Shown one piece after another: positions 1,402 to 29,443 of a stretch of 29,443 bases of DNA. The stretch lies in the IMG/VR virus record IMGVR_UViG_3300044637_002739, positions 1 through 29,443 of that record; one strand, written 5' to 3'. The translations under genes and the position numbers were made by a program. The notes beneath the pieces were generated by a model. It was not told the origin of the DNA. It saw nothing but the letters and a program-made list of their open reading frames with translations, and made no database searches. Numbering within the stretch: position 1 is the first letter of the stretch; each line of letters begins with the position of its first letter. Origin of the DNA: a virus.

Positions 1402-1411
1402 GTATATATTA
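1402..1411 (-). promoter_or_regulatory. Candidate late promoter element (TAATATATAC)
   Basis: Exact match to the recurrent TWATATATAM 10-mer, 19 nt before the start of the minus-strand virion-type gene ending at 1382. Confidence 0.45.
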
Positions 1412-1437
1412 ATTTTACATTTCTCAATCAAAGAAAA

Positions 1438-1447
1438 TAATATATAA
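1438..1447 (+). promoter_or_regulatory. Candidate late promoter element (TAATATATAA)
   Basis: Exact match to the recurrent 10-mer, only 3 nt before the ATG at 1451. If it is a -10 element, the mRNA would be leaderless. Confidence 0.4.
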
Positions 1448-1450
1448 GAT

Positions 1451-1813
1451 ATGGGTAAAATTAACAATTATGATGATTTTCTAAATGAAGAATTCTTCAG
1501 AAAGATTTTTAAAAAAGGAAAACAACCACAAAAGTCACAAATTGACTCATGTGTTGCGGAAATATTAGATTTTCTAAATGAAAACGGTATTTATACTTGG
1601 GATGATTTTCTTTATTCTAAAAAAGCTGATAAATATATTATAAATAAGATAATTGACACATCTACTAAAAACATGAAAGAACTAGAAGAGGTGAGATTTA
1701 AATTAAGACTTGAATTATCAAGTAGACAACAATTAAAAGACTATTTAAAAGAGCTTGAATCAAATGAAGAATATGAAAAATGTGCTTTAATAGTTAAAAA
1801 ACTAAGTAACTAA
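1451..1813 (+). CDS. Small protein with UVR-like C-terminal helix pair
   Basis: A 120-residue charged, mostly helical protein with no signal peptide or membrane segment. The last 30 residues (RQQLKDYLKELESNEEYEKC and onward) look like the UVR motif of UvrB, UvrC and ClpC-type proteins: two short helices with a central acidic E-Y/F-E-K/A turn, usually a protein-interaction element. A related C-terminus is seen in the 62-residue protein at 3100-3288. The start sits 3 nt after a TAATATATAA element. The next gene follows after 15 nt on the same strand. The function is unknown; the UVR resemblance is by eye only. Confidence 0.75.
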   Translation: MGKINNYDDFLNEEFFRKIFKKGKQPQKSQIDSCVAEILDFLNENGIYTWDDFLYSKKADKYIINKIIDTSTKNMKELEEVRFKLRLELSSRQQLKDYLKELESNEEYEKCALIVKKLSN

Positions 1814-1828
1814 AAAATAACTAAATAT

Positions 1829-2839
1829 ATGAAGGTTAAAAAATTTAACGATAAGAAGAAAGAAGAAGGAAAAGATATTCTTTTCAGTGCTAAATCTTTA
1901 GAAAAAGATAAAGAAGACAAACCATCTTTTAAAACATCAGTAGATGACCAAGAAAAAGTCGAGAAAGAATTCAAAAAAGAATTAGATAAGATTGAAAAAT
2001 TTGAATCCTTTATTACAATAAGTATAACAAATGACGATGATGATTTAGGAATCTCAGATGACTTTGGTAGACCAACCGATGAATACGAAGTTGATAAACA
2101 ATCAAGTATAGAACTCAGAGGTGCTGATTTTTTAGAAGATGAGATTGATAGCGATTACCAAGAAAGCGAAATGTCAGGATGTGGATGTTGTGGTAACTGT
2201 TCTGGAGAACAAGATTGCGAATGTGGATGTGAAAATTGCAAATGTTCACCTGATGAGAATATACAAAGAGCTTCTGATTTTATCAATTCTCTTTTTTCAG
2301 AAAATCTTAAATACCATTTAGATAATAATAAACCTATTACTGAAAATATATTTAGACCAGGTTCTGAATCTTTTTATGATGTTATTAAAGAAGCTCGTAA
2401 ATTATTTGATTTAGGAAGAGTTAAGTTATGTGATATTGACAAAGAAATTTATGAATCAACTGAAATTGGAAAATTTGGATATTTCAATGGTGAACTGGTT
2501 CCTTTAGATTTACCAATGGAAAACATTGAATCTATACAAGAAGCAGAATACAAAGGTAAAGAAGTTGAATTAAATCATCCAATGAGAAATACAAAATCAG
2601 GTAAGAAATACTATGTATATGTTAAGAATCCTAAGACTAAAAAAATAATTCGTGTGAATTTTGGAGATGTTAAAGGAGGATTAACTGCTAAAGTTAGTGA
2701 TCCAGAAGCTAGAAAGAATTTCGCTTCAAGACATAAATGTTCAACTAAAAAAGATAAAACTAAAGCAGGTTACTGGGCATGCAGACTAAACAAATACGGT
2801 CATTTGTTTGGAGGCAAAACTTATCCGGGATTCTGGTAA
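1829..2839 (+). CDS. Protein with nine-cysteine cluster and phage C-terminal domain
   Basis: A 336-residue protein in three parts. Residues 1-110 are very charged (K/E/D) and probably disordered. Residues 118-139 hold nine cysteines (118, 120, 121, 124, 130, 132, 134, 137, 139), a density typical of metal-binding clusters. A helical middle part follows. From about residue 245 the C-terminus has K-K-Y-Y-V-Y-V, P-K-T-K-K-I-I-R-V-N-F-G-D and then RHKC...KTKAGYWACR. As I recall, this pattern recurs at the C-terminus of many T4-like cyanophage and pelagiphage proteins of uncertain, possibly virion, function. The start follows the preceding gene by 15 nt with an A-rich leader and no Shine-Dalgarno sequence. 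Metal binding and a virion role are inferences. Confidence 0.8.
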   Translation: MKVKKFNDKKKEEGKDILFSAKSLEKDKEDKPSFKTSVDDQEKVEKEFKKELDKIEKFESFITISITNDDDDLGISDDFGRPTDEYEVDKQSSIELRGADFLEDEIDSDYQESEMSGCGCCGNCSGEQDCECGCENCKCSPDENIQRASDFINSLFSENLKYHLDNNKPITENIFRPGSESFYDVIKEARKLFDLGRVKLCDIDKEIYESTEIGKFGYFNGELVPLDLPMENIESIQEAEYKGKEVELNHPMRNTKSGKKYYVYVKNPKTKKIIRVNFGDVKGGLTAKVSDPEARKNFASRHKCSTKKDKTKAGYWACRLNKYGHLFGGKTYPGFW

Positions 2840-6926: not shown

Positions 6927-9900
6927 TTATCCGTTGATGAATCCACCAGCTGCGATAGCTCCTGTTCTAAGAATTGTTACATTGTTTACGATGATACCCA
7001 TACCTTTAATCGGTTCAACATATGTATCAAGAACACCAATTTGGTTATCAATAATCTCAGGAGTGTTGTTTTCCTCATCCATTTTATTGAAGTAGTTATA
7101 TAAACCATTCTTACTTACATAAGTCTCACAGATAACATCTGCTCTTAATTTAATATCCGATCTGATATCAGATGTGTTGAATTTCCATTGGAAGTCTAAC
7201 AACATTCTTGATAATTCTCTCTCAAGTTCGATTAGAACCTCTCTTACGTGGATGTAAGAAAGAGCTGACTTAACAAGCGTTTGAGCCGTATTCTCAGTTT
7301 CAATAATGAATCCTCTATTTCTTTTGAATACTAGTGGATTAATTTGTGCTTGATTCAAATATTCGATATCCTCTGGTGTGAAATCCTGTTCAATTGAATT
7401 GATTCCAGTGATTCTACCATTTGTAACACCCGCTGCGATTGTCCAAGGAGTAACATTTCCAACATTTGAAATATGTTTAGCCATATAGGTAGTCGCAACA
7501 AACGGTGCTGGTGGATGATCCAATGGTCTACCATTATCATTAATGTTTACATAAGGGAAGAAATAACCTACACAAGTTGTTCCTGCTCCATCAGCAAATG
7601 AGTAAAGGAATGCTGGATTACTTTCAGGATCACCACCTTTAGAAACATATTCCATTTGTAAAACACCCTCTGTGTTTACGAATGTTGGTGAAGAAGAGTT
7701 TTTAAACATTCTCGCAGATGGCATATTAATGAATCCAAATGCGTCTAGTCTATCACCACAGATATCAACTAATTGTTGTTTACTCTTTTCTGTAAGACCT
7801 AAACCAAATGAGTCAACTAAATATCTAAAGTCAATTGCCTCTTTGTTAGTCAATGATTTAAATAAAGGAGTTCCTTTAGCGACTAAGTTCAAAACAGAGT
7901 TTTGTCTAGCTTCAGTTCCATCAGGTAAAGAAGCATTTCTGATTCTAAATCCTTTCAAAGAAAGAACCTTATAAGTTGTAGCATATTGGTCAACAGTTGA
8001 GTATCTTTGTGTTTGAAGTTGTCCTCCAGAGAATCTTGTAGCGATTCTAGAATCACAAGTAACTTCAGTTAAAGAAGCATCACCAGAGTATTGTCTTTTA
8101 GACAAGATTCTTGTAAGTTTTCTTGGATATTGACCAGTTTGTAATGTGGTAGCATCGTAGTAAGCTTCTAAGAAATCACCAACTTTTACTTCTGAATATC
8201 TCTCACCATTAATTAAAACTTTATTTGGAACTTGAACATATCCAGATGGAATTTCAATCTCTACTGTTTGTTTGAAATTTGATTTTTCAGATTTGATGTA
8301 GAATGTGTTGTTTGCTAAAGCCGCAACATCAACATCAGTTGCTAAATCAGAATCTTTAAATTCAACATATAATGTTCCATCGTTATCTACATACATTCTC
8401 AAATAATGTCTAACAAGATAGTCATACATTCTTGATACATCTGTAAGTGACTCATAAACAACTTCTTCAGCTACTGTGTAAGCGTAATACTCAGAAGCAC
8501 CTGTGCCATTACCATATCCTAAAAGACCAGCAATTTGTTGTGGAGTTTTTCCGTTAAACGCGGTCACTTCGTTAGAAGCTATCGTGAATGAACCTTTATT
8601 TAAGGTAGAATCAGGGAAATAAACTTGTTCAAATGTCGCTAAGTCAATTTTAAGATCCCAGTTTGCAACATCTGATCTGAAAATGATATAATCATAACCA
8701 GCCCAAGATTGAGTGTTACCACCATTTGTTGCTTCTTCACCATCTACGAATAACACATCAACTGTTGTATTAAGTAAAAATGGATTACTAGCTGATGCTC
8801 CAGATGCGTCTAAGAATAATCGGTTACTAAAGAAGTAATCTTTTGTATTAATTTGACCATCGTAGTTTTTAGTGTAGAATGTTGAGTATTTACCAACAAC
8901 ACCAATAGAATCACTGTTATTATTGATATCAGCCATATCTGATTTAGTCTGAACACCTTCACTTCCTAAGATAAACTCATTATCTTCAGTGTAGATTACT
9001 AAATAACCATTTAAGATATCAGATAACTGAGCCGTTGTCAAACCAGTAGTCAAGTTAAATGATTTATTTAGAAGAGAACTTTGAACAATATTTGAAATTG
9101 TAATATTTTCAAAACTATATTTTTCATATGTAACTGGATTTAATACCAATGACATTCTATTTTTATTAGGACCATCAATTAGATTAACTAATCTGTTAAA
9201 CATTTTGAATTTTCTCCATTGTTTGTAATTTGTAACAGATGGTGTATCATTTGTTCCAGGGAATTCAATTTTGATTACACCGGATCCAGCAGTAACTTCA
9301 GAAATGTAGTAGTCACTAGTTGAGTAAGTTCCAAACTCATAGTCAATATACTCAGAAGTTCCAACAGTTACATCTTCAACTGAGAAAGATAAAGGAGAAA
9401 CAAAAGACTGAGAAGCAACTCCTAAGTCAATGTAACCTAAAACTATATCAGTAGCACCAACAGCTGGATTAACACCAACAGATAAACTACTAACTACTTG
9501 AATCTCACCAGTAGTATCAAGAATGAAAGCAGATGAGTAAGTAGCTAATGTAGTGCTAAATGGATAGTCACCAGCGTTCATAACCAAAGTAGCGGTTGCA
9601 GCGATAGGAATGAGAGTATCACCAATCACACCAAAGGCGCCTGGACCAGCTCCGTATGTCACACTAATAGATGTTGTAGCTGTAACGATAGCAGGTGTAG
9701 ATGAAACTAAATCCACGTTATAAACAGAACCTTCACCAAACCAAGCTGTTCTTTCAGGATTCCCAACCAAACCAGTTGTTAATAAAGTTTCAGCAAATTC
9801 ATTAGCAGGGTTTAAATCAAATCCATAAGCGTGAGCTGGTTGAGACACGTATGAATAAGAACCATATCCTGGACCTAAATCACCTAACATTGCAGTTACG

Positions 9901-10937
9901 TTACCCGGTAAGTCAAGTGGAGTTGAAACAATCTGAACATCTTCAGTGATTGTTTCTTTATATGATAAGAAATTAATTTCATTTTCACCACCATCAGCAA
10001 TTGTATTACCCAATAAGTCTAATACACCATTGTAGTAATCAGTTTCAACTACATCATTGTTAAATGCACAGAACACACCTGTTCTATCAGTATCTCTGTT
10101 AATAGTAGTTTCGATAAAGATATTTCTACCATTAAGATCTCTAAAATATGGAATCAACGACAATCCTTCGTAGTATGCTAATGTTGTAATATTTCTATCA
10201 TCCGCGAAGTTTCTAACTTGAGCTTTTCTAAGACCAGATGCACTAAAGTAATTACTCCATCTTGGATCAACTGCCAACTCTTGATAATTAGACCAATCAC
10301 CTGCGATAATAACAACATCAACAAGATAATCAGAAGCATAATCTAAAGCGTTTACATATGACGGCAATTTCTCAATAGAACCATACCATTCAAGTAATGT
10401 TCTATCAAAACCAGTTAAAGTAGACTTAAAGATGAAAACAGAAACATATCTATCCGAAAGATTAGTAATATTAAATGCTCTCTCAGAATAACCTGATGTG
10501 TTTTTAGTAAGGTTAATAAAAGAATCAGTGTCTCTTTTCCAGAAACCTGTTGTATCAAAGAATCTTCTATAAGGACCCTCTCTTTCAATATCATTACTTG
10601 AAGCTGCAGAAGATGATAAAGATTGATACTCAATAACATCTAATGTATCATCAGTTACTAAAAGGTTCATAGCGAAAACTGGAGCAGTTTCCACCATTTT
10701 AGAAACTGTTCTATGAAAGAATGAACCCTTTCTTTCTAATCCTCTATCTAATTGTCCGAAAATAGACTCCAACTCAGAAGTTGTAGTTATTCTAATCGGC
10801 GTATTAACAGGCCCTTTTCTTGAAACACCAATAACAAGGTTTGTAATACCTTCAACTACTGGGCTTGTGATTACAGACTTGTCAAATTCTTCTAAGAAGA
10901 TTCCTGGTCTCTTGTATTTTCCAATTTGAATTGCCAT
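6927..10937 (-). CDS. 18: Tail sheath protein (gp18-like), about double length
   Basis: A 1336-residue contractile sheath protein; T4 gp18 has 659. The N-terminus has the sheath signature (KYKRPGIFLEE, then VIGVSRKGPVNTPIRIT and FGQL). The C-terminal part, from about residue 1030, has FRYLVDSFG, DICGDRLDAFGFINMP, the APFVATTYMAKHI segment near 1147 and the closing helical region with NTAQTLVKSALSYIHVREVL and GIIVNNVTILRTGA, which carries the interlocking strands of the fold. The extra 600-700 residues lie in the middle, are beta-rich and T/S/V/G-rich, and are probably surface-exposed inserted domains. It has its own promoter element at 10965-10974 and its own terminator at 6876-6909. The family call is firm; the insert is unrecognised. 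Confidence 0.93.
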   Translation of the reverse strand: MAIQIGKYKRPGIFLEEFDKSVITSPVVEGITNLVIGVSRKGPVNTPIRITTTSELESIFGQLDRGLERKGSFFHRTVSKMVETAPVFAMNLLVTDDTLDVIEYQSLSSSAASSNDIEREGPYRRFFDTTGFWKRDTDSFINLTKNTSGYSERAFNITNLSDRYVSVFIFKSTLTGFDRTLLEWYGSIEKLPSYVNALDYASDYLVDVVIIAGDWSNYQELAVDPRWSNYFSASGLRKAQVRNFADDRNITTLAYYEGLSLIPYFRDLNGRNIFIETTINRDTDRTGVFCAFNNDVVETDYYNGVLDLLGNTIADGGENEINFLSYKETITEDVQIVSTPLDLPGNVTAMLGDLGPGYGSYSYVSQPAHAYGFDLNPANEFAETLLTTGLVGNPERTAWFGEGSVYNVDLVSSTPAIVTATTSISVTYGAGPGAFGVIGDTLIPIAATATLVMNAGDYPFSTTLATYSSAFILDTTGEIQVVSSLSVGVNPAVGATDIVLGYIDLGVASQSFVSPLSFSVEDVTVGTSEYIDYEFGTYSTSDYYISEVTAGSGVIKIEFPGTNDTPSVTNYKQWRKFKMFNRLVNLIDGPNKNRMSLVLNPVTYEKYSFENITISNIVQSSLLNKSFNLTTGLTTAQLSDILNGYLVIYTEDNEFILGSEGVQTKSDMADINNNSDSIGVVGKYSTFYTKNYDGQINTKDYFFSNRLFLDASGASASNPFLLNTTVDVLFVDGEEATNGGNTQSWAGYDYIIFRSDVANWDLKIDLATFEQVYFPDSTLNKGSFTIASNEVTAFNGKTPQQIAGLLGYGNGTGASEYYAYTVAEEVVYESLTDVSRMYDYLVRHYLRMYVDNDGTLYVEFKDSDLATDVDVAALANNTFYIKSEKSNFKQTVEIEIPSGYVQVPNKVLINGERYSEVKVGDFLEAYYDATTLQTGQYPRKLTRILSKRQYSGDASLTEVTCDSRIATRFSGGQLQTQRYSTVDQYATTYKVLSLKGFRIRNASLPDGTEARQNSVLNLVAKGTPLFKSLTNKEAIDFRYLVDSFGLGLTEKSKQQLVDICGDRLDAFGFINMPSARMFKNSSSPTFVNTEGVLQMEYVSKGGDPESNPAFLYSFADGAGTTCVGYFFPYVNINDNGRPLDHPPAPFVATTYMAKHISNVGNVTPWTIAAGVTNGRITGINSIEQDFTPEDIEYLNQAQINPLVFKRNRGFIIETENTAQTLVKSALSYIHVREVLIELERELSRMLLDFQWKFNTSDIRSDIKLRADVICETYVSKNGLYNYFNKMDEENNTPEIIDNQIGVLDTYVEPIKGMGIIVNNVTILRTGAIAAGGFING

Positions 10938-17681: not shown

Positions 17682-17697
17682 AGACGTGGTTTTTTAC

Positions 17698-17709
17698 AAT
17701 ATATATAAA
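17698..17709. promoter_or_regulatory. Symmetric TATATATA element between the divergent terminase genes
   Basis: AATATATATAAA lies 16-18 nt from both starts (17681 on minus, 17728 on plus). It is one base off the recurrent 10-mer in either direction, so it could serve both genes. Confidence 0.45.
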
Positions 17710-17727
17710 AAAATATTCTCTGTCCTT

Positions 17728-19863
17728 ATGGCAGCCAACGAGCAACAAGAAAAACAAATGGTTTTTACCACTAAATTAGTGGATGAATCAACAGATAAAA
17801 TAAACGATGGTATTGTAATAAAACGATATCAAAATCCTTGGCTTAAAAGTGAAGTAGGATTAAGAAGATCGGGTGTAACATTTAGGATGACACCAGATGA
17901 ACAACAAGAATATGTTAGATGTGCCTTAGATGTTCATTATTTCGTTGAAAAATATTGTAAAGTAAAAAGAGAGGATGGTTCTATTGGTAATATTCTACTC
18001 AGAGATTATCAAAAAGAAATACTAGATAACTTTGTAAATAGTAGATTTAATATACTTATGGCATCTCGACAGGTTGGTAAAACAATATCATCAGCTATTT
18101 TCATGTTACACAAAATTCTATTTGATAACGATAAAAATATAATGATTGTAGCAAACAAAGGAGACACAGCTGTTGAAATCGTAGATAAAATAAAATCAAT
18201 CTATACACTTCTTCCTTTCTTTTTAAAACCAGGTATTAAGACTTGGAATCAAAAATCATTAACATTTGAAAATGGATGTAGAATCAAAACATCAGCTAGA
18301 ACAAAGACTCCAGCTATTGGTTTTACCATTGATGTTCTTTACTTAGATGAGTTTGCTCATATTCCATCAAATATTATTGAACCTTACTATACAGCTGCTT
18401 TTCCAACGACAGCAGCTGTTCAAAACTCTAAGATTATTATCACTTCCACACCAAATGGAATGAATCTATTTCATAGACTTCTAACAGATGCAGAAAGACC
18501 AGAGGGAGATCCACAAAAGAACAACTATAAAGCAATGAGGGTATATTGGTATCAAGTTCCTGGTCGATTTGTAACTTATTTGAGATTAAATCCTCACAAA
18601 TTATATGATCATGGTGTCACAAAAGAAGATGTATTTGAACTATGTAAAGAGAAATGGGGTGAAAAAACAAAAATAGAAATGGGTTGGAACTCAGATTTAC
18701 AAAAGGATATTATCTATGTTTACAACAACGAAAATTGTTCAGATGAAGAAGTTAAATCTTTATCAATAGAAGACAATAGAGGATTTGAGGTTCCAGTAAG
18801 AGCACTATCTGAGGCAACTACCTGGAAAGAAGAAGCAATTAAAGATATAGGTGGAGAAGACGCATTTAATCAAGAATATGGTCTTAGATTTATCAATGCT
18901 TCAAAATCACTACTAAATGAGGCAATTATTGATGAGTTGTTAAGAAATAAGAAAAATTATGTGTTTGAAGAAATTACAGAATTTGATAAAAGAATTAAAT
19001 TTAGTTACTCAGATTTAAAATTCGTAGATGATGATGATTTGTTTCTACCTTTAAAAAGAAAAGATTATAAAGTTATAATATCAGTCGATATCTCAGAAGG
19101 ATTAGGTCAGGACTACTCAGTTATAAATATATTTAGAATTAACAATAAAACAAAAGAAGTAATAGATATACAGAAAAATAACTATAAATCACTAGTTGAT
19201 TTCTTTAAATTAGAACAAATAGGAATATTTAGAAGTAATATAATATCAATAAAACAGCTATCAGAACTTTTATATTTAATTTGTTTTGAATATTTCAATC
19301 CTGAAAATGTAAAAGTAGTATTAGAGTTAAACAACTATGGAAATACTCTTTTAGCAGAAATGCCACACGTTTTTGATGGTAAAAACGATTACGGGTCATC
19401 TATTTTCGTTAGATATAAACACAGAATTGACGCCACAGAAGAAAAAGTTGGACTAAAGGTTGGAGAAAATAAAAATCTAATGGTTAAAGACTATCAAGAT
19501 TTGATGTATTCAAAAGGATTTGGAATCAATAACGAGGATACTATTAGAGAAATTACTACTTTTGTAAAGCACACAACCACGGCAGGAAATACTAAATATG
19601 CCGCAGATGTAGGACACGATGACTGTGTAATGACAATTGTAAACACGACTTCTATATTTCAAAAAACCGATTTTAAAGAAATGGTTGATGAGTGGTCTAA
19701 TAAACACACCGATAAAGAAATGATGCAATTCATAAATCAATGTATGAACAACATTGATTTTGTCGAAGGCGTAGATTATGGTTCATTTTTAAGAGCAAAA
19801 AATCTCGCTAAAACAAAATCTGGTAAATCAAATATGGGAGGTAGTTGGTTTGGAATTGGTTAG
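17728..19863 (+). CDS. 17: Terminase large subunit (gp17-like)
   Basis: A 711-residue DNA-packaging motor (T4 gp17 is 610). The ATPase half has Walker A SRQVGKT at 113-119 (T4 reads SRQLGKT) and Walker B VLYLDEFA with D207 and E208, then ITSTPNG as the coupling motif. The nuclease half has the RNase H-like acidic residues D454 (ISVDISEG), E533 (VLELNN) and D631/D632 (VGHDDCV). It pumps DNA into the prohead and cuts it at headful. I chose the ATG at 17728 because an upstream GTG at 17686 lies against the opposite gene start and would read through the TATATATA element. The final bases are shared with the convergent ClpS-like gene. Confidence 0.95.
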   Translation: MAANEQQEKQMVFTTKLVDESTDKINDGIVIKRYQNPWLKSEVGLRRSGVTFRMTPDEQQEYVRCALDVHYFVEKYCKVKREDGSIGNILLRDYQKEILDNFVNSRFNILMASRQVGKTISSAIFMLHKILFDNDKNIMIVANKGDTAVEIVDKIKSIYTLLPFFLKPGIKTWNQKSLTFENGCRIKTSARTKTPAIGFTIDVLYLDEFAHIPSNIIEPYYTAAFPTTAAVQNSKIIITSTPNGMNLFHRLLTDAERPEGDPQKNNYKAMRVYWYQVPGRFVTYLRLNPHKLYDHGVTKEDVFELCKEKWGEKTKIEMGWNSDLQKDIIYVYNNENCSDEEVKSLSIEDNRGFEVPVRALSEATTWKEEAIKDIGGEDAFNQEYGLRFINASKSLLNEAIIDELLRNKKNYVFEEITEFDKRIKFSYSDLKFVDDDDLFLPLKRKDYKVIISVDISEGLGQDYSVINIFRINNKTKEVIDIQKNNYKSLVDFFKLEQIGIFRSNIISIKQLSELLYLICFEYFNPENVKVVLELNNYGNTLLAEMPHVFDGKNDYGSSIFVRYKHRIDATEEKVGLKVGENKNLMVKDYQDLMYSKGFGINNEDTIREITTFVKHTTTAGNTKYAADVGHDDCVMTIVNTTSIFQKTDFKEMVDEWSNKHTDKEMMQFINQCMNNIDFVEGVDYGSFLRAKNLAKTKSGKSNMGGSWFGIG

Positions 19864-23476: not shown

Positions 23477-23486
23477 TTATATATTA
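23477..23486 (-). promoter_or_regulatory. Candidate late promoter element (TAATATATAA)
   Basis: Exact match to the recurrent 10-mer, 4 nt before the gp25-like start and overlapping the last three bases of the clamp loader gene end at 23484. Confidence 0.4.
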
Positions 23487-24449
23487 TATTAAGTTATCTC
23501 TATATTTACCAATAACGGTCATTGCTAAAATGAGAGGATCAGAAACAGAGTCAAGTTTTGAAGAATAATCTGATAGAATATAATTACAAATAAATAACTT
23601 ATCAATGTTTTTACCATTTTCGATAGACCAATTAACAAAAGTATTACCCAAAAGTTTAAAAAGAACATCTACTCTTTCAGCTCCAAAAATATTGTTTATA
23701 AAATGCCAAAGTTTTTCATAATCATAAGACTCATCATACAACATTTCAAATAACTCTAACTTAACTTTATTTGAAACTCCTGAATATTCTTTTGAAAGGC
23801 TTCCGGTAGAAATAAAATTTTGCAACTCAACCATTATACTTCTGAAATCTGGAAATTTCTTTGTAATAATTGAGATTAAATTTTCTTTTGGAATAGTAAT
23901 ACTCTCCTGTGGTAGTATTACATTTTTAATTCTTTTAAAAATCTCCTGTTTAAGAAATCTTTCTTCTTCAATATCGATACAATCAAAATTTATTTGTGGT
24001 ATTCTTGACTTAATACCATCGGAAATCTTATTTATATGATTAGTTGTAATAATAAATCTAACATTTCTGTTATATTTTTCAATAAATGCTTTAAAAGCAT
24101 CTTGAAATTGAGAAGATACTCTCTCAAACTCATCTAAAAAGATGTATTTAATATCAGAATCTGTATCCATCATTGGAGTATACTTACAAAAATCTTCAAT
24201 TTGAGTTCTTAGAACATCAATAGAAGTAAATAAAGATGAATTTAACTCTAAAAAGGGTTTATCTTTTGTGTATTTACCAATTAGTATTCTAGCCAAACTA
24301 GTCTTACCGGTTCCATAATGTCCATAGAAAATATAATTACCGTTAATACCATTTTCAAAATTTTTTCTAATTCTTGGTAATAACACTATATCTTCAATAG
24401 ATTTAGGTCTCCATTTTTCCCATAAAAGTAATTGATTCATCGAACTCAT
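23484..24449 (-). CDS. 44: Sliding clamp loader ATPase (gp44-like)
   Basis: A 321-residue AAA+ protein, the same size as T4 gp44 (319). It begins LLWEKWRPKSIEDIVL, a typical clamp loader opening. Walker A is GHYGTGKTS (43-51), Walker B is IFLDEFE (D106, E107), sensor 1 is TTNH (N137) and the arginine finger is in SRI (R149). With gp62 it opens the sliding clamp (gp45) and loads it at primer ends; the loaded clamp also activates late transcription in T4. gp62 and gp45 homologues are not in this window. No late-type element precedes it, fitting early or middle expression. Confidence 0.94.
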   Translation of the reverse strand: MSSMNQLLLWEKWRPKSIEDIVLLPRIRKNFENGINGNYIFYGHYGTGKTSLARILIGKYTKDKPFLELNSSLFTSIDVLRTQIEDFCKYTPMMDTDSDIKYIFLDEFERVSSQFQDAFKAFIEKYNRNVRFIITTNHINKISDGIKSRIPQINFDCIDIEEERFLKQEIFKRIKNVILPQESITIPKENLISIITKKFPDFRSIMVELQNFISTGSLSKEYSGVSNKVKLELFEMLYDESYDYEKLWHFINNIFGAERVDVLFKLLGNTFVNWSIENGKNIDKLFICNYILSDYSSKLDSVSDPLILAMTVIGKYRDNLI

Positions 24450-24520: not shown

Positions 24521-25717
24521 ATGATAGGAGAAAGATTTAATTTCGAAGATGTTTTCTTTAGAGATTTAACAGTATGTGTTCTTGACACATTTGAAGGACA
24601 AATAAGATGGGTTAATAAATTCTCATCTGGAAATGTTCCGGTAAATGTTCCATTTTATTACTCTTTAACCGGTGATGAAAGATTCTTATTAGATTCTTTT
24701 TCAGATGACGTGGTTTCTGAGAACAGATTTGTCGAATTAAACACTGACCAAATTCCAAGAGGCCACTTAACAATGACTGGATTCAACATAAAGTCTGATG
24801 AATTCGCTAATCCAAATGTTTGGTTAAGAATGGTAGTTGAAAATGAAGTTGAAATTAGAAAAGTTTTAGCAAAAGTAAGAGCAATTCCAATTACGGTTAA
24901 CTATGAACTCACAATTTTACTTTCTAGTGAGATTGATACTTTTAAATGCGCACAGGCTATTATGGATACAATGTGGATTTATAAGTTTATGTATTTTGAA
25001 CATAACTTTATGAACATTGACGCTGTTATTTTAATGCCTGATACAAATCAAATTGAAATGGCTAGAGAAAAAAATCTAACATCCGATAATAATATCAAAC
25101 TAAAAGCATCTTTCGAAGTTAGCACCTATTATCCAGCATTTAGAAAAGATAGAATCAATATGTCAGGATACCCAAGACAATACGGAACCGGAATGTCCGA
25201 CTTAAATGGATTCCCTGTAGACGGCGGATTCAGTGACTTTTTTGGACAACCAGGAGACGCACCAAGAGATCCAAATCTTGGAACACCGTGGGTATTTCCA
25301 TCATCGTCTATTCCAGGATCAGTAGGATCGGTAGGAGGAGTTGAGAATACCGATGGATCCGGTGGAGCTGGTAATCCTGGTGGTCCTGGCGGCGGAGGTG
25401 GAACCTCAGGTTCTTCCGGTTCTGCTGGAACATCAGGAACCAGTGGATCAGGTTATCCAATTGGATTGACAGATAGTAGTTTCTTTGGTAGAAGCGCAAG
25501 TCCATTAGGTTCAGACCCATCAAGAAGAATCATAAATGGTGGATTCTCAAATGATCCCGACTACTATCTAATTGCACCAAAAAGAACAAGATGGTTTAAT
25601 AATATACTACAAGCTAGACAAAAAGCATCAACTCCTCTAACTAATCCTAATGCTGGCAATCCAGCTCCTGGTAATAATGGAGGTCCGAATCCACCAATAA
25701 ATCCAAATCCTATCTAA
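24521..25717 (+). CDS. 15: Tail sheath stabiliser/completion protein (gp15-like)
   Basis: A 398-residue protein (T4 gp15 is 272). Residues 1-215 have the gp15 layout: FFRDLTVCVLDTFEGQIRW, NVPVNVPFYYSL, LPRG-like QIPRGHLTMTGF, then PITVNYELTILLSSEIDTFK and FEVSTYYPAF, with alternating strands and a central helix. In T4, gp15 caps the end of the sheath and tube so that the tail can join the head. The C-terminal part differs: about residues 260-310 are a Gly/Ser/Pro-rich flexible stretch (GGPGGGGGTSGSSG), and the last 30 residues are Pro/Asn-rich. These tails are probably disordered. The family call is by eye but consistent in length and pattern. Confidence 0.78.
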   Translation: MIGERFNFEDVFFRDLTVCVLDTFEGQIRWVNKFSSGNVPVNVPFYYSLTGDERFLLDSFSDDVVSENRFVELNTDQIPRGHLTMTGFNIKSDEFANPNVWLRMVVENEVEIRKVLAKVRAIPITVNYELTILLSSEIDTFKCAQAIMDTMWIYKFMYFEHNFMNIDAVILMPDTNQIEMAREKNLTSDNNIKLKASFEVSTYYPAFRKDRINMSGYPRQYGTGMSDLNGFPVDGGFSDFFGQPGDAPRDPNLGTPWVFPSSSIPGSVGSVGGVENTDGSGGAGNPGGPGGGGGTSGSSGSAGTSGTSGSGYPIGLTDSSFFGRSASPLGSDPSRRIINGGFSNDPDYYLIAPKRTRWFNNILQARQKASTPLTNPNAGNPAPGNNGGPNPPINPNPI

Positions 25718-25788: not shown

Positions 25789-27072
25789 ATGAAGAATCTT
25801 AAACTCGAGTTGTTTAATTTCAGAAAGAATCTCTCACTTGATCAAGAAGAGGTTTCTACTATAGTAGAAGGTCACATGAATGCTTGCAACGAACATTCTG
25901 AAAAGACTATCATTAATTCACTTAATGAAAAACTCAAAGCTTATACATACGATAAAAGTGTGAAATCTCTTTTAGAATCTCTAAATGATGATATGTCTAA
26001 CTATGAGTTATTATATGAATTAAAAAATTTGTATAATGTTTTAAACACAAAAAACCAAGGGGAAATTTATAGACAACCAATTAACGTTCTTTTACAAACA
26101 ATTAACTTAGAAAATGACCAAGACAGAATGTCTAAAGTATTAAATGAGTTAGCTATTTATGATTGGGTTCCTGAGATTAAACTTTTTGTTCATAATTTAA
26201 CAACAACTCCTGAGAAAAGATCTAATCTTCTTAGTGGTGGTAAAGGTGAATCAGTTTATTCACTTGTTGAATCAGTAGAAGATGGTCATATCGCATTAAT
26301 TAGAGATTCTTGGTTTCTTTTAACAGAAAACTCAATTGAGAAAACTTTAGTTGAAACACATGTTAAAGACGAAGAAGAATTAAGAAGTTTAAGAACTTTA
26401 GAAACAGCTATGAAATATGCTACAATTTCTGAAGACAGAGTTAATTTTAGAATTTCTGAATACTTAACACTTGGACTTTCAGTTGCTAAAAAAGGTGGAA
26501 TCTTTATCAATGATGATGAATTAAATGAAGATACAACTTTAGAGTCTCTTTTTTCTTCACCTATCGTTCCAATTGTAAATAAAAATTTCTACCCTGTTTT
26601 ATTAGAAGTTTCTCAAAACTTAGATAAATTTGTTGAATTAGACGTTGTTAAAAGAATTGGCAACCTAATCAATCCTTGTTTAGAGTGTTATGCATTCAAT
26701 TACAAAAACAACACTTATCTTTACAGATGTGATGAAAGATACGGTAACTCATTCTTTAAATATGAATCAGCTTTAGAATTAGTAAACGAAGTAAGAAATG
26801 AATTAAATTACGATTTAACTTATTTCTATGAAAATAAACTTTCTAAAGAATTAGTTGTTAAAAGAAAATTAGAAGATAAAGAAAGAGAAATCACTTTAAA
26901 ATTAGAAGATGTAAACTTTAATATTGAAAAAATTAAAGGATCTATTCAATTAATTGGTGAATCTGAAGTTTTAACTACAGCACTTAAAAACTTAGAAAAA
27001 AGATCTAATTCTCTTTCATCTGAGTTAGACGGAGTTAAAGAAATTCAATATAAAGAAAGAATCAAACTTTAA
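25789..27072 (+). CDS. Unknown 427-aa protein, probably virion
   Basis: A soluble, mostly helical protein. Residues 1-130 are helical with few aromatics, 150-260 mixed with LVESVEDGHIALIRDSWFLL, residues about 290-325 include CLECYAFNYKNNTYLYRCDE with three cysteines, and 355-427 form a charged coiled coil. There is no signal peptide. Codon use favours common codons as in the sheath gene, and it has a late-type element and its own terminator, so an abundant structural or morphogenetic protein is likely. I recognise no family. It lies between the gp15-like gene and the late sigma factor. Confidence 0.8.
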   Translation: MKNLKLELFNFRKNLSLDQEEVSTIVEGHMNACNEHSEKTIINSLNEKLKAYTYDKSVKSLLESLNDDMSNYELLYELKNLYNVLNTKNQGEIYRQPINVLLQTINLENDQDRMSKVLNELAIYDWVPEIKLFVHNLTTTPEKRSNLLSGGKGESVYSLVESVEDGHIALIRDSWFLLTENSIEKTLVETHVKDEEELRSLRTLETAMKYATISEDRVNFRISEYLTLGLSVAKKGGIFINDDELNEDTTLESLFSSPIVPIVNKNFYPVLLEVSQNLDKFVELDVVKRIGNLINPCLECYAFNYKNNTYLYRCDERYGNSFFKYESALELVNEVRNELNYDLTYFYENKLSKELVVKRKLEDKEREITLKLEDVNFNIEKIKGSIQLIGESEVLTTALKNLEKRSNSLSSELDGVKEIQYKERIKL

Positions 27073-27204: not shown

Positions 27205-27570
27205 ATGTACCTTAATAACAAAGATTTATATGTCGAGATAATCGTATCGAAAGCACAAGGAAAATTAACAAGAAACGCAGATAAAATGCTAGAACTTCTA
27301 GCAAAGAAAACAATCAAAAAAATGAGATACTGGTCAAACGATGATAAACTAGACTGTTATCAATCAGGACTATTGGATATGTTCCAAAACTGGTATAATT
27401 TCAATGAAGATAAATCAGTCAACGCCTTTGCTTACTTCACCGAAGTATTCAAAAGAGGCATAGCAAAAGGATTTAACGAACTTTATAAGAAAAAAGGAGA
27501 TAATGATAACCTCATAAAACTTTTATCAATTGAAGGTTCAAATGATGGACAAGGACTTCACTCTATCTAA
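27205..27570 (+). CDS. 55: Late-transcription sigma factor (gp55-like)
   Basis: A 121-residue protein; T4 gp55 has 185. The N-terminus YLNNKDLYVEII matches T4 YVNNKELLQAII, the centre has KMRYWSNDDKLDCYQSGLLD (as in gp55 W-K-Q-E-M-I-A-D-G), and FNEDKSVNAFAYFTEVFKRG matches T4 [20 protein letters not shown]. This core resembles sigma region 2, which reads the late -10 box. The C-terminal part of T4 gp55, which binds the sliding clamp, is missing; the protein ends after NDGQGLHSI. The 5' leader is 55 nt from the candidate late element. The small ORF at 27542-27697 overlaps its end in the next frame. Confidence 0.85.
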   Translation: MYLNNKDLYVEIIVSKAQGKLTRNADKMLELLAKKTIKKMRYWSNDDKLDCYQSGLLDMFQNWYNFNEDKSVNAFAYFTEVFKRGIAKGFNELYKKKGDNDNLIKLLSIEGSNDGQGLHSI

Positions 27571-27697
27571 TATCAATCTAAAAACATTTGATATAGTAAT
27601 GACACCATCATTTCGTGGTGCTAGTATACCAATCAAACCTCGTTTCTATTCTAGACAGAAAAGACGAAAAGAAAAAATTCAAAACATATTTAAATAA
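27542..27697 (+). CDS. Small basic protein overlapping the late sigma factor gene
   Basis: A 51-residue ORF (ATG at 27542; a second ATG at 27545) that overlaps the sigma factor gene by 29 nt in the next frame and ends just before a terminator. It reads MMDKDFTLSNINLKTFDIVM, then PSFRGASIPIKPRFY, a basic RQKRRKEK patch and the end KIQNIFK. The Q-N-I-F end is similar to clamp-binding peptides, so it could supply the clamp contact missing from the short gp55-like protein, or act like T4 gp33. That idea rests on position and four residues only. Confidence 0.6.
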   Translation: MMDKDFTLSNINLKTFDIVMTPSFRGASIPIKPRFYSRQKRRKEKIQNIFK

Positions 27698-27700
27698 AAA

Positions 27701-27729
27701 AAACCACTCAAATTGAGTGGTTTTTTTAG
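27701..27729. terminator. Bidirectional terminator between small ORF and glutamine synthetase
   Basis: CCACTCAAATTGAGTGG at 27704-27720, flanked by A- and T-runs, lies between convergent genes. The stem is identical to that at 15011-15027. Confidence 0.92.
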
Positions 27730-27742
27730 TTACATAAAATAA

Positions 27743-28828
27743 TTAAACATTTACCTCTGAATAAACAGTAGATAACATTCTATCCGAAACCAAATAAGGG
27801 TCACAGTTAGAAGCAGGTCTTCTATCTTCAAAATATCCACAACCATCTACTTGAGACTGAGCAGGAATTCTAATTGAAGTATCTCTTGTAGAAAAACCAT
27901 AACTAAAATCTCGAATACCAGAAGTTTCATGAGCTCCTGTCAATCTTTGTTCATTATGTAGTCCATAAACAGCAATGTGTTCCATATGATTTGACTCTAA
28001 TTTAGGCATAGATTCCATAATGATTTCAATACCACCTTCTTTTCTCATTTCACTTGAAGAGAAATTAACGTGACACCCAGTTCCATTCCAATCACCTTTG
28101 ATTGGTTTTGGATGAAGTGAAACATTCACATTATGTTTTTCAGCAACTCTATGTAGAATATAACGTGATATCCACAATTGGTCTGATCCACTTAAAGCAG
28201 TAACAGGCCCAATTTGATATTCCCATTGACCAAGAAGTACTTCAGCATTTATACCAGAGATATCCAAACCAATCTCCATACACATATTCATATGTTCTTC
28301 AACAATTTCTCTACCGATTACAGAATCAGCTCCAATTCCACAGTAATAATCACCTTGAGGTCTAGGACTTTTAGAAGGATCCAATCCAAATCCAAGAGGT
28401 AATCCAATACCTTCTCCAAAAGGCATATTTGGTTTATGTGTTAGAGTATATTCTTGTTCCCAACCAAACCAAGGAGCATCATTTTTAGAAAGATTATCTA
28501 AAGACAATTCTTTAACGGTTTCGGCTAGTTTTCTTCTGTTGTTAGTTTTATGTGGTGTTCCATCCGGATTCAATACCTCACAAAGAACTAATTTATGTGG
28601 ATTTCCTCTAAAAGGATCATCCACAACAAATACTGGCTTAAGTAGACAGTCGGTATTCTCTCCTTTTCCAGCTTTAGCTTGTAAAGTAGAACTACCATCA
28701 AAAGACCACATTGAATAATGCGAAATGTTATTGTCTAACAAAACAGATTCTGTTGCAATTTTAGTCTTACTTCTAAGCTGCTGTGGCTCGGATCCGTCTA
28801 ACCAAATATACTCTTGTTTAATTTTCAT
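27743..28828 (-). CDS. glnA: Glutamine synthetase, type II (eukaryote-like)
   Basis: A complete 361-residue enzyme of the GSII family (plant and GlnII enzymes are about 330-360). GS makes glutamine from glutamate, ammonia and ATP. Family motifs appear in order: EYIWLDGS (6-13), WSFDGSST (41-48), WEQEYTL with E124 and E126, YYCGIGAD, GINAEVLLGQWEYQIGP with E196 and E203, GDWNGTGCHVNFS with H253, NEQRLTGAHET with R295, TSIRIP with R320 and GYFEDRRPASN with E334. All metal- and substrate-binding residues I can place are kept, so it should be active. It is single, with a terminator, and lacks a late-type element. A phage copy is unusual. Confidence 0.96.
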   Translation of the reverse strand: MKIKQEYIWLDGSEPQQLRSKTKIATESVLLDNNISHYSMWSFDGSSTLQAKAGKGENTDCLLKPVFVVDDPFRGNPHKLVLCEVLNPDGTPHKTNNRRKLAETVKELSLDNLSKNDAPWFGWEQEYTLTHKPNMPFGEGIGLPLGFGLDPSKSPRPQGDYYCGIGADSVIGREIVEEHMNMCMEIGLDISGINAEVLLGQWEYQIGPVTALSGSDQLWISRYILHRVAEKHNVNVSLHPKPIKGDWNGTGCHVNFSSSEMRKEGGIEIIMESMPKLESNHMEHIAVYGLHNEQRLTGAHETSGIRDFSYGFSTRDTSIRIPAQSQVDGCGYFEDRRPASNCDPYLVSDRMLSTVYSEVNV

Positions 28829-28854: not shown

Positions 28855-28888
28855 TTTGAAACAAAGTTTAGTTTTTATGATATATTTG
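28855..28888 (+). promoter_or_regulatory. Possible Bacteroidota-type promoter (TTTG-N22-TATATTTG)
   Basis: TATATTTG at 28881-28888 is a perfect -7 element; the nearest TTTG (28855-28858) is 22 nt upstream, three more than ideal. It would start transcription close to the ATG at 28904. Confidence 0.5.
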
Positions 28889-28903: not shown

Positions 28904-29161
28904 ATGAAAGAAGTGTTAATTCAATTATGGGAAAATTTTGATAATGATTTACATCAATCAGATGGATGTTCTTTACACATAGATATGAATGAAAGAGATA
29001 TCTTTCTGAATTTACAAGAACAAGACTATCCAGTTGGATTACCATCAGAGGTATCTATACCAGATTCTATCTATGATATTTTAGAAAAGAAAAAAAGTAT
29101 TAGACTATCAGAAATAGAAATGAATAATCTAATGGGTTTAAAAGATATTATTGTTCTATGA
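28904..29161 (+). CDS. Small acidic protein of unknown function
   Basis: An 85-residue protein starting MKEVLIQLWENFDND. It is acidic, has CSLHIDMNERDIFLN and VSIPDSIYDILEKKK segments and ends in a hydrophobic LMGLKDIIVL. I start it at 28904 because an in-frame ATG at 28814 would cross the -7 promoter element. Its TGA overlaps the next ATG (ATGA), so it is coupled to the membrane protein that follows. No family is recognised. Confidence 0.7.
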   Translation: MKEVLIQLWENFDNDLHQSDGCSLHIDMNERDIFLNLQEQDYPVGLPSEVSIPDSIYDILEKKKSIRLSEIEMNNLMGLKDIIVL

Positions 29162-29443
29162 TTTTTAAAATTTTATCTATTTTATTTATTTTAAACAGCC
29201 TCTATTATATTCTAAATTATAAAAGAATTGATGAACCTTTTAAAATGAGAGATAAAAATAATAAACTTGACTTATTTCACTATATGTTAAAAGTTGGTTA
29301 TATTATTTGGCTTGTTATTGGTATTTTTAATTTCTACTCAATCTTTATTCTAATACTTTCTTCTTTAATCTTATTTAGAATTCCAATCTATCTAGTTAGT
29401 AAGAGATTTTCTTTAGTTTACCACCGATTAGTTCCACCATTAA
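29158..29443 (+). CDS. Small membrane protein, 3' end cut by the window
   Basis: An open frame from the ATG at 29158-29160 runs to the window end without a stop, giving 95 residues. It has a hydrophobic N-terminal segment (IFKILSILFILNSLYYIL), a polar stretch with two charged patches, then one or two further membrane segments (VGYIIWLVIGIFNFY and SIFILILSSLILF) and a basic end. It is translationally coupled to the preceding gene by an ATGA overlap. The function is unknown. Confidence 0.7.
   Translation, partial: MIFKILSILFILNSLYYILNYKRIDEPFKMRDKNNKLDLFHYMLKVGYIIWLVIGIFNFYSIFILILSSLILFRIPIYLVSKRFSLVYHRLVPPL

Follow-up and report, generated by a model that had tools for sequence, protein, structure and literature searches.

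A type II glutamine synthetase at a conserved genomic address in uncultured megaphages

A divergent type II glutamine synthetase (GSII) is encoded at a conserved genomic address in a lineage of uncultured megaphages, where codon comparisons show it to be under strong purifying selection. The gene was identified in the virus record IMGVR_UViG_3300044637_002739, which was analysed over its entire length of 29.4 kb (29,443 nucleotides; hereafter the window). Its product is probably an accessory enzyme that makes glutamine during infection and thereby feeds the amidotransferases of the host, and the sequence comparisons suggest that megaphages of this lineage supply their own nitrogen donor during infection. 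Phage-borne glutamine synthetase (GS) is already known from moraphages (2025) and jumbo phages (2026). What may be new here is the type of the enzyme, its phage-only clade, the fixed address with its alternative occupants, a candidate control element and the evidence for selection, some of which may be tabulated in the supplements of those reports.

The gene and its predicted enzyme

27743..28828, minus strand: type II glutamine synthetase (GSII), 361 aa, ATG start; supported by Pfam, phmmer, NCBIfam and an AlphaFold2 model

An earlier note on this DNA had called the ORF a full-length GSII, and this call stands, as the motifs DGSST, EQEY, GINAEV, GDWNGTG, NEQRLTG and FEDRRPASN are all found in it. 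Both the N- and C-terminal GS domains of Pfam scored above their own cut-offs. In phmmer comparisons the protein matched the GSII of yeast (E=8e-98) and maize (E=1e-95), with solved GSII at about E=1e-88 to 1e-98 and type I enzymes at 1e-11 or weaker, while the NCBIfam GlnII model aligned with residues 1-359 (E=1.6e-119, 398.9 bits); these values put the GSII match far beyond chance. The GlnII score lies below the 500-bit equivalog cut-off of that model, which is a threshold for naming and not a biochemical definition of type II, and the GSII of a 735 kb phage that is placed among Bacteroidota GSII likewise falls under it (393 bits). The type I and type III models reached 64 and 44 bits, respectively, against 399 for GlnII. 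Having the two-domain fold, a length within 330-380 aa and a closer relationship to GSII than to GSI or GSIII, the protein was assigned to GSII, and by its scores it is homologous to GlnII, yet divergent. The PHROGs collection contained no GSII family, its best match being an unnamed family of 480 positions (E=5.5e-19), and the BFVD fold library held no close GSII for the window model, the nearest named matches being amidoligases.

Thirteen active-site columns of the maize enzyme (D56, E129, E131, E192, E199, G245, H249, R291, E297, R311, R316, E330 and R332), which we take to be catalytic or metal-binding from general knowledge of GSII structure, were compared by alignment. All 13 are identical in the window protein and invariant in 185 other viral GSII (109 of the window type, 62 other viral proteins and 14 of a second type described below), so that the loss of catalytic residues which the earlier note had put forward as a weak point of its reading was not observed. 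The intact active site also rules out a degraded or pseudo-enzyme, including in the case of the long-branched second type. The AlphaFold2 model (pLDDT 90, pTM 0.91) superposed on the Streptomyces, human and maize GSII structures with TM scores of 0.86-0.93, and the top 50 solved-structure matches were all true GSII. On the complete active site and the GSII fold, the enzyme is predicted to be catalytically competent, in line with the probable role given above.

Cellular GSII, such as those of Streptomyces (4bax), yeast (3fky) and maize (2d3a), share with the window protein their fold, length class, catalytic residues and two domains, but are only 45-58% identical to it; the window protein differs from them in its phage-only clade, its inserts and its sub-cut-off GlnII score. 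It exceeds them in length mainly through a 7-residue insert at positions 132-138, with smaller inserts relative to maize at 31-33, 53-55, 111-114 and 150-151. The 7-residue insert, which could alter assembly or kinetics, sits in a lower-confidence loop; the region 131-160 belongs to the parts modelled with the least confidence.

The carrier phages and the address of the gene

The features of the window that describe the carrier and the surroundings of the GS gene are the following:

17686..19863, plus strand: T4-type large terminase (PF03237, E=3e-20; phrog_5989, E=2e-48)
23484..24449, minus strand: DNA polymerase clamp loader (phrog_168, E=1.4e-48), syntenic in 64 loci
24521..25717, plus strand: conserved 398-aa protein in 71 of 111 loci, without a Pfam or PHROG match
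25789..27072, plus strand: conserved 427-aa protein without a family match, in 79 of 111 loci (median identity 83%), used as GS-independent bait
27205..27570, plus strand: gp55-like late sigma factor, 121 aa (phrog_234, E=9e-7), in 84 of 111 loci (median identity 93%), flanking the 3' side of GS
28904..29161, plus strand: 85-aa ORF diverging from GS on its 5' flank, in 87 of 111 loci and kept at empty sites too; the mechanical ORF table starts this frame at a TTG at 28814
29158..29442, plus strand: small ORF running off the end of the window, the next conserved flank, in 75 of 111 loci

The window thus encodes several T4-type core genes, namely the terminase, the gp55-like sigma factor, the clamp loader, an SbcD-like nuclease subunit and a tail sheath. 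The sheath protein (6927-10937, minus strand) is unusually long with 1336 aa, and known sheath families match mainly its C-terminal part. The earlier description of the carrier as a T4-like phage fits these core genes; as to kinship it calls for caution, the nearest complete relatives in the DNA comparison being huge phages of 635-642 kb and not isolates of the T4 family. When the 3.7-kb GS end of the window was compared at the DNA level with 50,697 phage records, it matched only five uncultured huge phages, among which LR745206 (635 kb) and LR756502 (642 kb) were 74-75% identical over 78-84% of its length. PMC7162821 assigns both to its Mahaphage clade, in which it puts all of its genomes larger than 634 kb and for which Bacteroidetes are the predicted hosts. 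The main text of that paper makes no mention of glutamine.

Gene order around GS is kept in 111 related contigs, with the terminase present on the sigma side in 53 loci; since loci are often cut by contig ends, the synteny counts in these 111 loci are lower bounds. In most of these contigs, and in the complete LR745206 and LR756502, GS has the gp55-like sigma gene on one side and the two small ORFs on the other, and for this reason the window can be placed, on gene content and order, in a lineage of uncultured megaphages that have T4-type core genes. Its assignment to the lineage of LR745206 and LR756502 is supported by the whole block from the terminase to GS, which together with both flanks was found in the same order in L082 and L083. 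In LR756504, a complete relative of 636 kb, no GS match was found, and next to a gp55-like protein of 60% identity the neighbours are rearranged.

To sample loci without regard to GS, the neighbouring 427-aa protein served as bait, and the contigs reaching at least 4.5 kb downstream (n=60) were inspected. In 46 of these 60 contigs the address, flanked by the sigma gene on one side and the 85-aa ORF on the other, was occupied by GSII, always in minus orientation; as the search covered the nearest 80 loci, this describes occupancy in the kin of the window and not in all megaphages. Two types could be distinguished: type A, that of the window, in 32 contigs, and type C in 14, the latter being about 50% identical to the window protein. 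Type C retains the complete active site, and the DNA upstream of it differs from that of type A. Type C at the same address was seen in L233, L370-L380 and similar loci. The remaining 14 contigs carry no GS at the address, and where this could be measured the distance from the sigma gene to the small ORF is mostly 62-411 bp. No GS was found elsewhere in ten empty-site contigs (up to 180 kb), which, with the empty sites themselves, indicates that the gene is not essential everywhere. In one near relative without GS the address is filled by a 230-aa class III adenylate/guanylate cyclase (L374:7075-7767, plus strand; PF00211, E=4e-23).

Mapped on a bait-protein tree, the states A, C and empty require at least six changes. 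Contigs with type A lie on both sides of this tree; all those with type C belong to a single sublineage, the sister group of which has A; and the empty state is scattered, one such site (L346) adjoining the closest kin of the window. The simplest reading of this pattern is an ancestral type A, one apparent replacement by type C and several losses. Replacement is preferred because the flanks diverge by only 15-19% where type C takes the place of type A, whereas the GS proteins themselves differ by about 50%. Another intact GSII in this place, set between flanks that are 81-85% identical, also points to selection acting on GS activity itself. Otherwise, the shared address and gene order are those of a GSII inherited vertically within the phage lineage.

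Measures of selection and composition agree with a long-established phage gene. The dN/dS ratio was 0.08-0.19 between the window gene and its relatives, with a median of 0.067 in 50 close pairs. The GC content at third codon positions is 0.18, equal to that of the terminase and other phage genes (0.17-0.21), which argues for long residence in the phage. As a host-type gene that is under selection in a genuine phage genome, as judged by synteny, complete genomes and dN/dS, it qualifies as an auxiliary metabolic gene.

Related lineages turn what was an anecdotal auxiliary gene into a comparative system, in which similar megaphage core blocks carry type A, type C or no GS. Comparing this state with habitat nitrogen and with the GS type of the host may reveal when an own nitrogen donor benefits the virus.

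Distribution and origin of phage GSII

The earlier note regarded a full-length GSII as rare in phages, an assessment that does not hold for uncultured jumbo phages and megaphages, where it is common: 128 close GSII loci were identified in IMG/VR, and at least 570 with a broader query. Among the 50,697 phage records, GSII was found only in uncultured huge phages, namely LR756502 and LR745206 (73% and 72% identical to the window protein, respectively) and the 735 kb LR756501 and LR756503 (49% in this search). The remaining matches in this collection were weak (about 25% identical), and its isolated phages gave no GSII-like match.

As the earlier note had proposed, phage GSII were placed in trees together with cellular GSII. 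Type A forms a single phage-only clade (support 100/99), which has a long stem of about 0.3-0.4, stands outside Bacteroidota GSII and does not join eukaryotic GS. Even the closest cellular proteins share only about 55-58% identity with it. An AU test of types A and C as one clade gave p=0.535. The GSII of the 735 kb LR756501, which is intact like that of the window and about 53% identical to it, is placed among Bacteroidota sequences and has different neighbours, and its position there indicates a separate acquisition. Together with further jumbo-phage lineages, this copy shows that GSII entered large phages several times. From the hosts predicted in PMC7162821, type A might have been expected to come from Bacteroidota; this was not supported, since only the 735 kb copy fell among Bacteroidota. 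The phage-only clade represents a candidate for biochemical study.

Further GSII lineages are borne by jumbo phage contigs of 190-300 kb, most of them with a terminase; several phylogenetically distinct ones occur in L246, L258, L260, L262, L276, L284 and L239 (contigs of 190-298 kb). More distant type A GS were found in L206, L208, L211, L213, L216 and L218-L220, at most about 6 kb from a terminase that is only about 30% identical to that of the window. As these genes adjoin so different a terminase, the comparison suggests that type A GS is present in other, older phage lineages as well.

Several viral GS have been reported before. Moraphages, with genomes of 200-307 kb and Bacteroidota hosts predicted for most, carry GS in 9 of 25 cases (PMC12619734), and glnA has been reported in jumbo phage surveys (PMC13037316). 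Like the gene of the window, these are auxiliary genes of large, uncultured and mostly aquatic phages, and the GS described in moraphages may include some of the distinct jumbo-phage lineages listed above. The window differs from the latter in its type II enzyme, its address beside a gp55-like sigma gene and its 635-642 kb kin. Neither report gives GS type, tree or genomic position in the portions available, and supplementary tables may hold some of these. Viral type II GS were also described in 2007 from GOS ocean data, where they grouped with eukaryotic GS and mimivirus (PMC1821046), unlike the window type.

Terminator, candidate control element and proposed role

28859..28869, no strand assigned: 11-bp palindrome AAACAAAGTTT (AAACWWWGTTT), lying some 40 nt before the start of GS; putative operator or promoter element
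27697..27727, no strand assigned: bidirectional intrinsic terminator between the convergent GS and gp55-like genes (-15.9 kcal/mol, z -5.5, T-tracts both ways)

The palindrome is located at -41 to -59 in distinct type A upstream regions, exact in 28 of 60 and with at most one mismatch in 37 of 60, against 0.3% and 3.3%, respectively, of random 100-nt windows, a contrast that somewhat overstates the evidence because related upstream regions are not independent. Among relatives whose neighbouring bases differ it is found displaced and inverted. It was not found upstream of type C genes or at empty sites, and a genome-wide regulon was ruled out, as the palindrome was no more frequent than a reversed control in five large phage records. 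This pattern suggests a control site specific to GS.

The earlier note had argued for expression outside the late programme from a separate terminator and the absence of the late motif. The terminator proved to be common to GS and the convergent gp55-like gene, and hairpins of a similar kind follow GS in most of the relatives displayed. With 7 copies in the window against an expectation of 5.9, the T4 late motif TATAAATA does not exceed chance, and that it is missing in front of GS is therefore little guide to timing. As the Bacteroidota -7 motif TAnnTTTG was not above chance in the window either, no timing was assigned.

In the proposed mechanism, GS would be expressed during infection from its own regulated promoter, and the enzyme would assemble into the usual multi-subunit ring of GSII. 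It would convert ATP, glutamate and ammonia into glutamine, with glutamate and ammonia taken from the host, and the glutamine would pass to host amidotransferases for nucleotide, amino-sugar and NAD synthesis while the genome of about 600 kb is copied. Adenylylation acts on many bacterial type I GS, and type II enzymes are not known to have that switch. The phage enzyme should thus escape the controls on type I GS, and glutamine supply could become independent of host nitrogen control. The users of glutamine would be mostly those of the host, since neither a class II amidotransferase nor PII was found in six large phage records and a class I GATase domain was found in only two of the six. A link of GS to phage amidotransferases or PII was therefore discarded for most records.

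The absence of these partners also fits an active GS whose main benefit is signalling: more glutamine and less glutamate, 2-oxoglutarate and ammonia would make the cell read its state as nitrogen-replete and mount no starvation response, with nucleotide nitrogen being secondary. The GS gene having its own conserved palindrome, not common across the phage genome, and the substitution of a different GSII, which suggests that selection is on the product and not on one particular protein contact, are in keeping with this. Signalling and supply share the same chemistry and are inseparable by sequence, and we consider signalling as the main benefit rather improbable. A broader proposal, which we regard as tentative and less likely than not, is that the address is a dedicated, regulated slot for a nitrogen-metabolism gene. 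An ancestral phage GSII under its own palindromic operator would later have been swapped as a whole for another GSII in one sublineage and lost in several others, depending on the host or the habitat; a supply of glutamine, or a spoofed nitrogen status, would then be generally needed in some megaphage infections.

It is very unlikely that the enzyme acts on another amine, gamma-glutamylating polyamines or a modified nucleotide instead of ammonia. Gamma-glutamylpolyamine synthetases do exist in the GS family (PMC5403932), and phages are rich in unusual amidoligases, the nearest named matches in the viral fold library. The NCBIfam gamma-glutamylputrescine model, however, scored 39 bits against 399 for GlnII, the flap Glu301 and every glutamate and metal ligand are retained, and the best solved structures are exclusively true GSII.

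In some bacteria GS moonlights as a regulator-binding protein, and a catalytically idle GS could engage the nitrogen regulators of the host as a decoy or in a structural role. We give this slightly less credence still, because the catalytic residues are invariant in the 185 viral proteins, purifying selection is strong, and a swap for a GSII only about 50% identical would break specific contacts. Finally, a bacterial GS joined to a phage contig by contamination or chimeric assembly, which the earlier note had kept in mind and which the cellular family and the position near a contig end might suggest, can practically be dismissed: both flanks are conserved and the same junctions recur in dozens of separately assembled contigs, among them records of 385-476 kb, and also in the complete genomes of 635 kb and 642 kb, and the gene has a phage-only clade, distant cellular relatives and phage-like codon GC.

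L424, taken from the 436 kb record of L007, encodes at 1405-2820 (minus strand) a protein of 471 aa that has, close to the C-terminus, a domain like that of class I glutamine amidotransferases, and the neighbouring 233-aa ORF (224-925) resembles, by eye, the start of an ATP-PPase of the QueC type.
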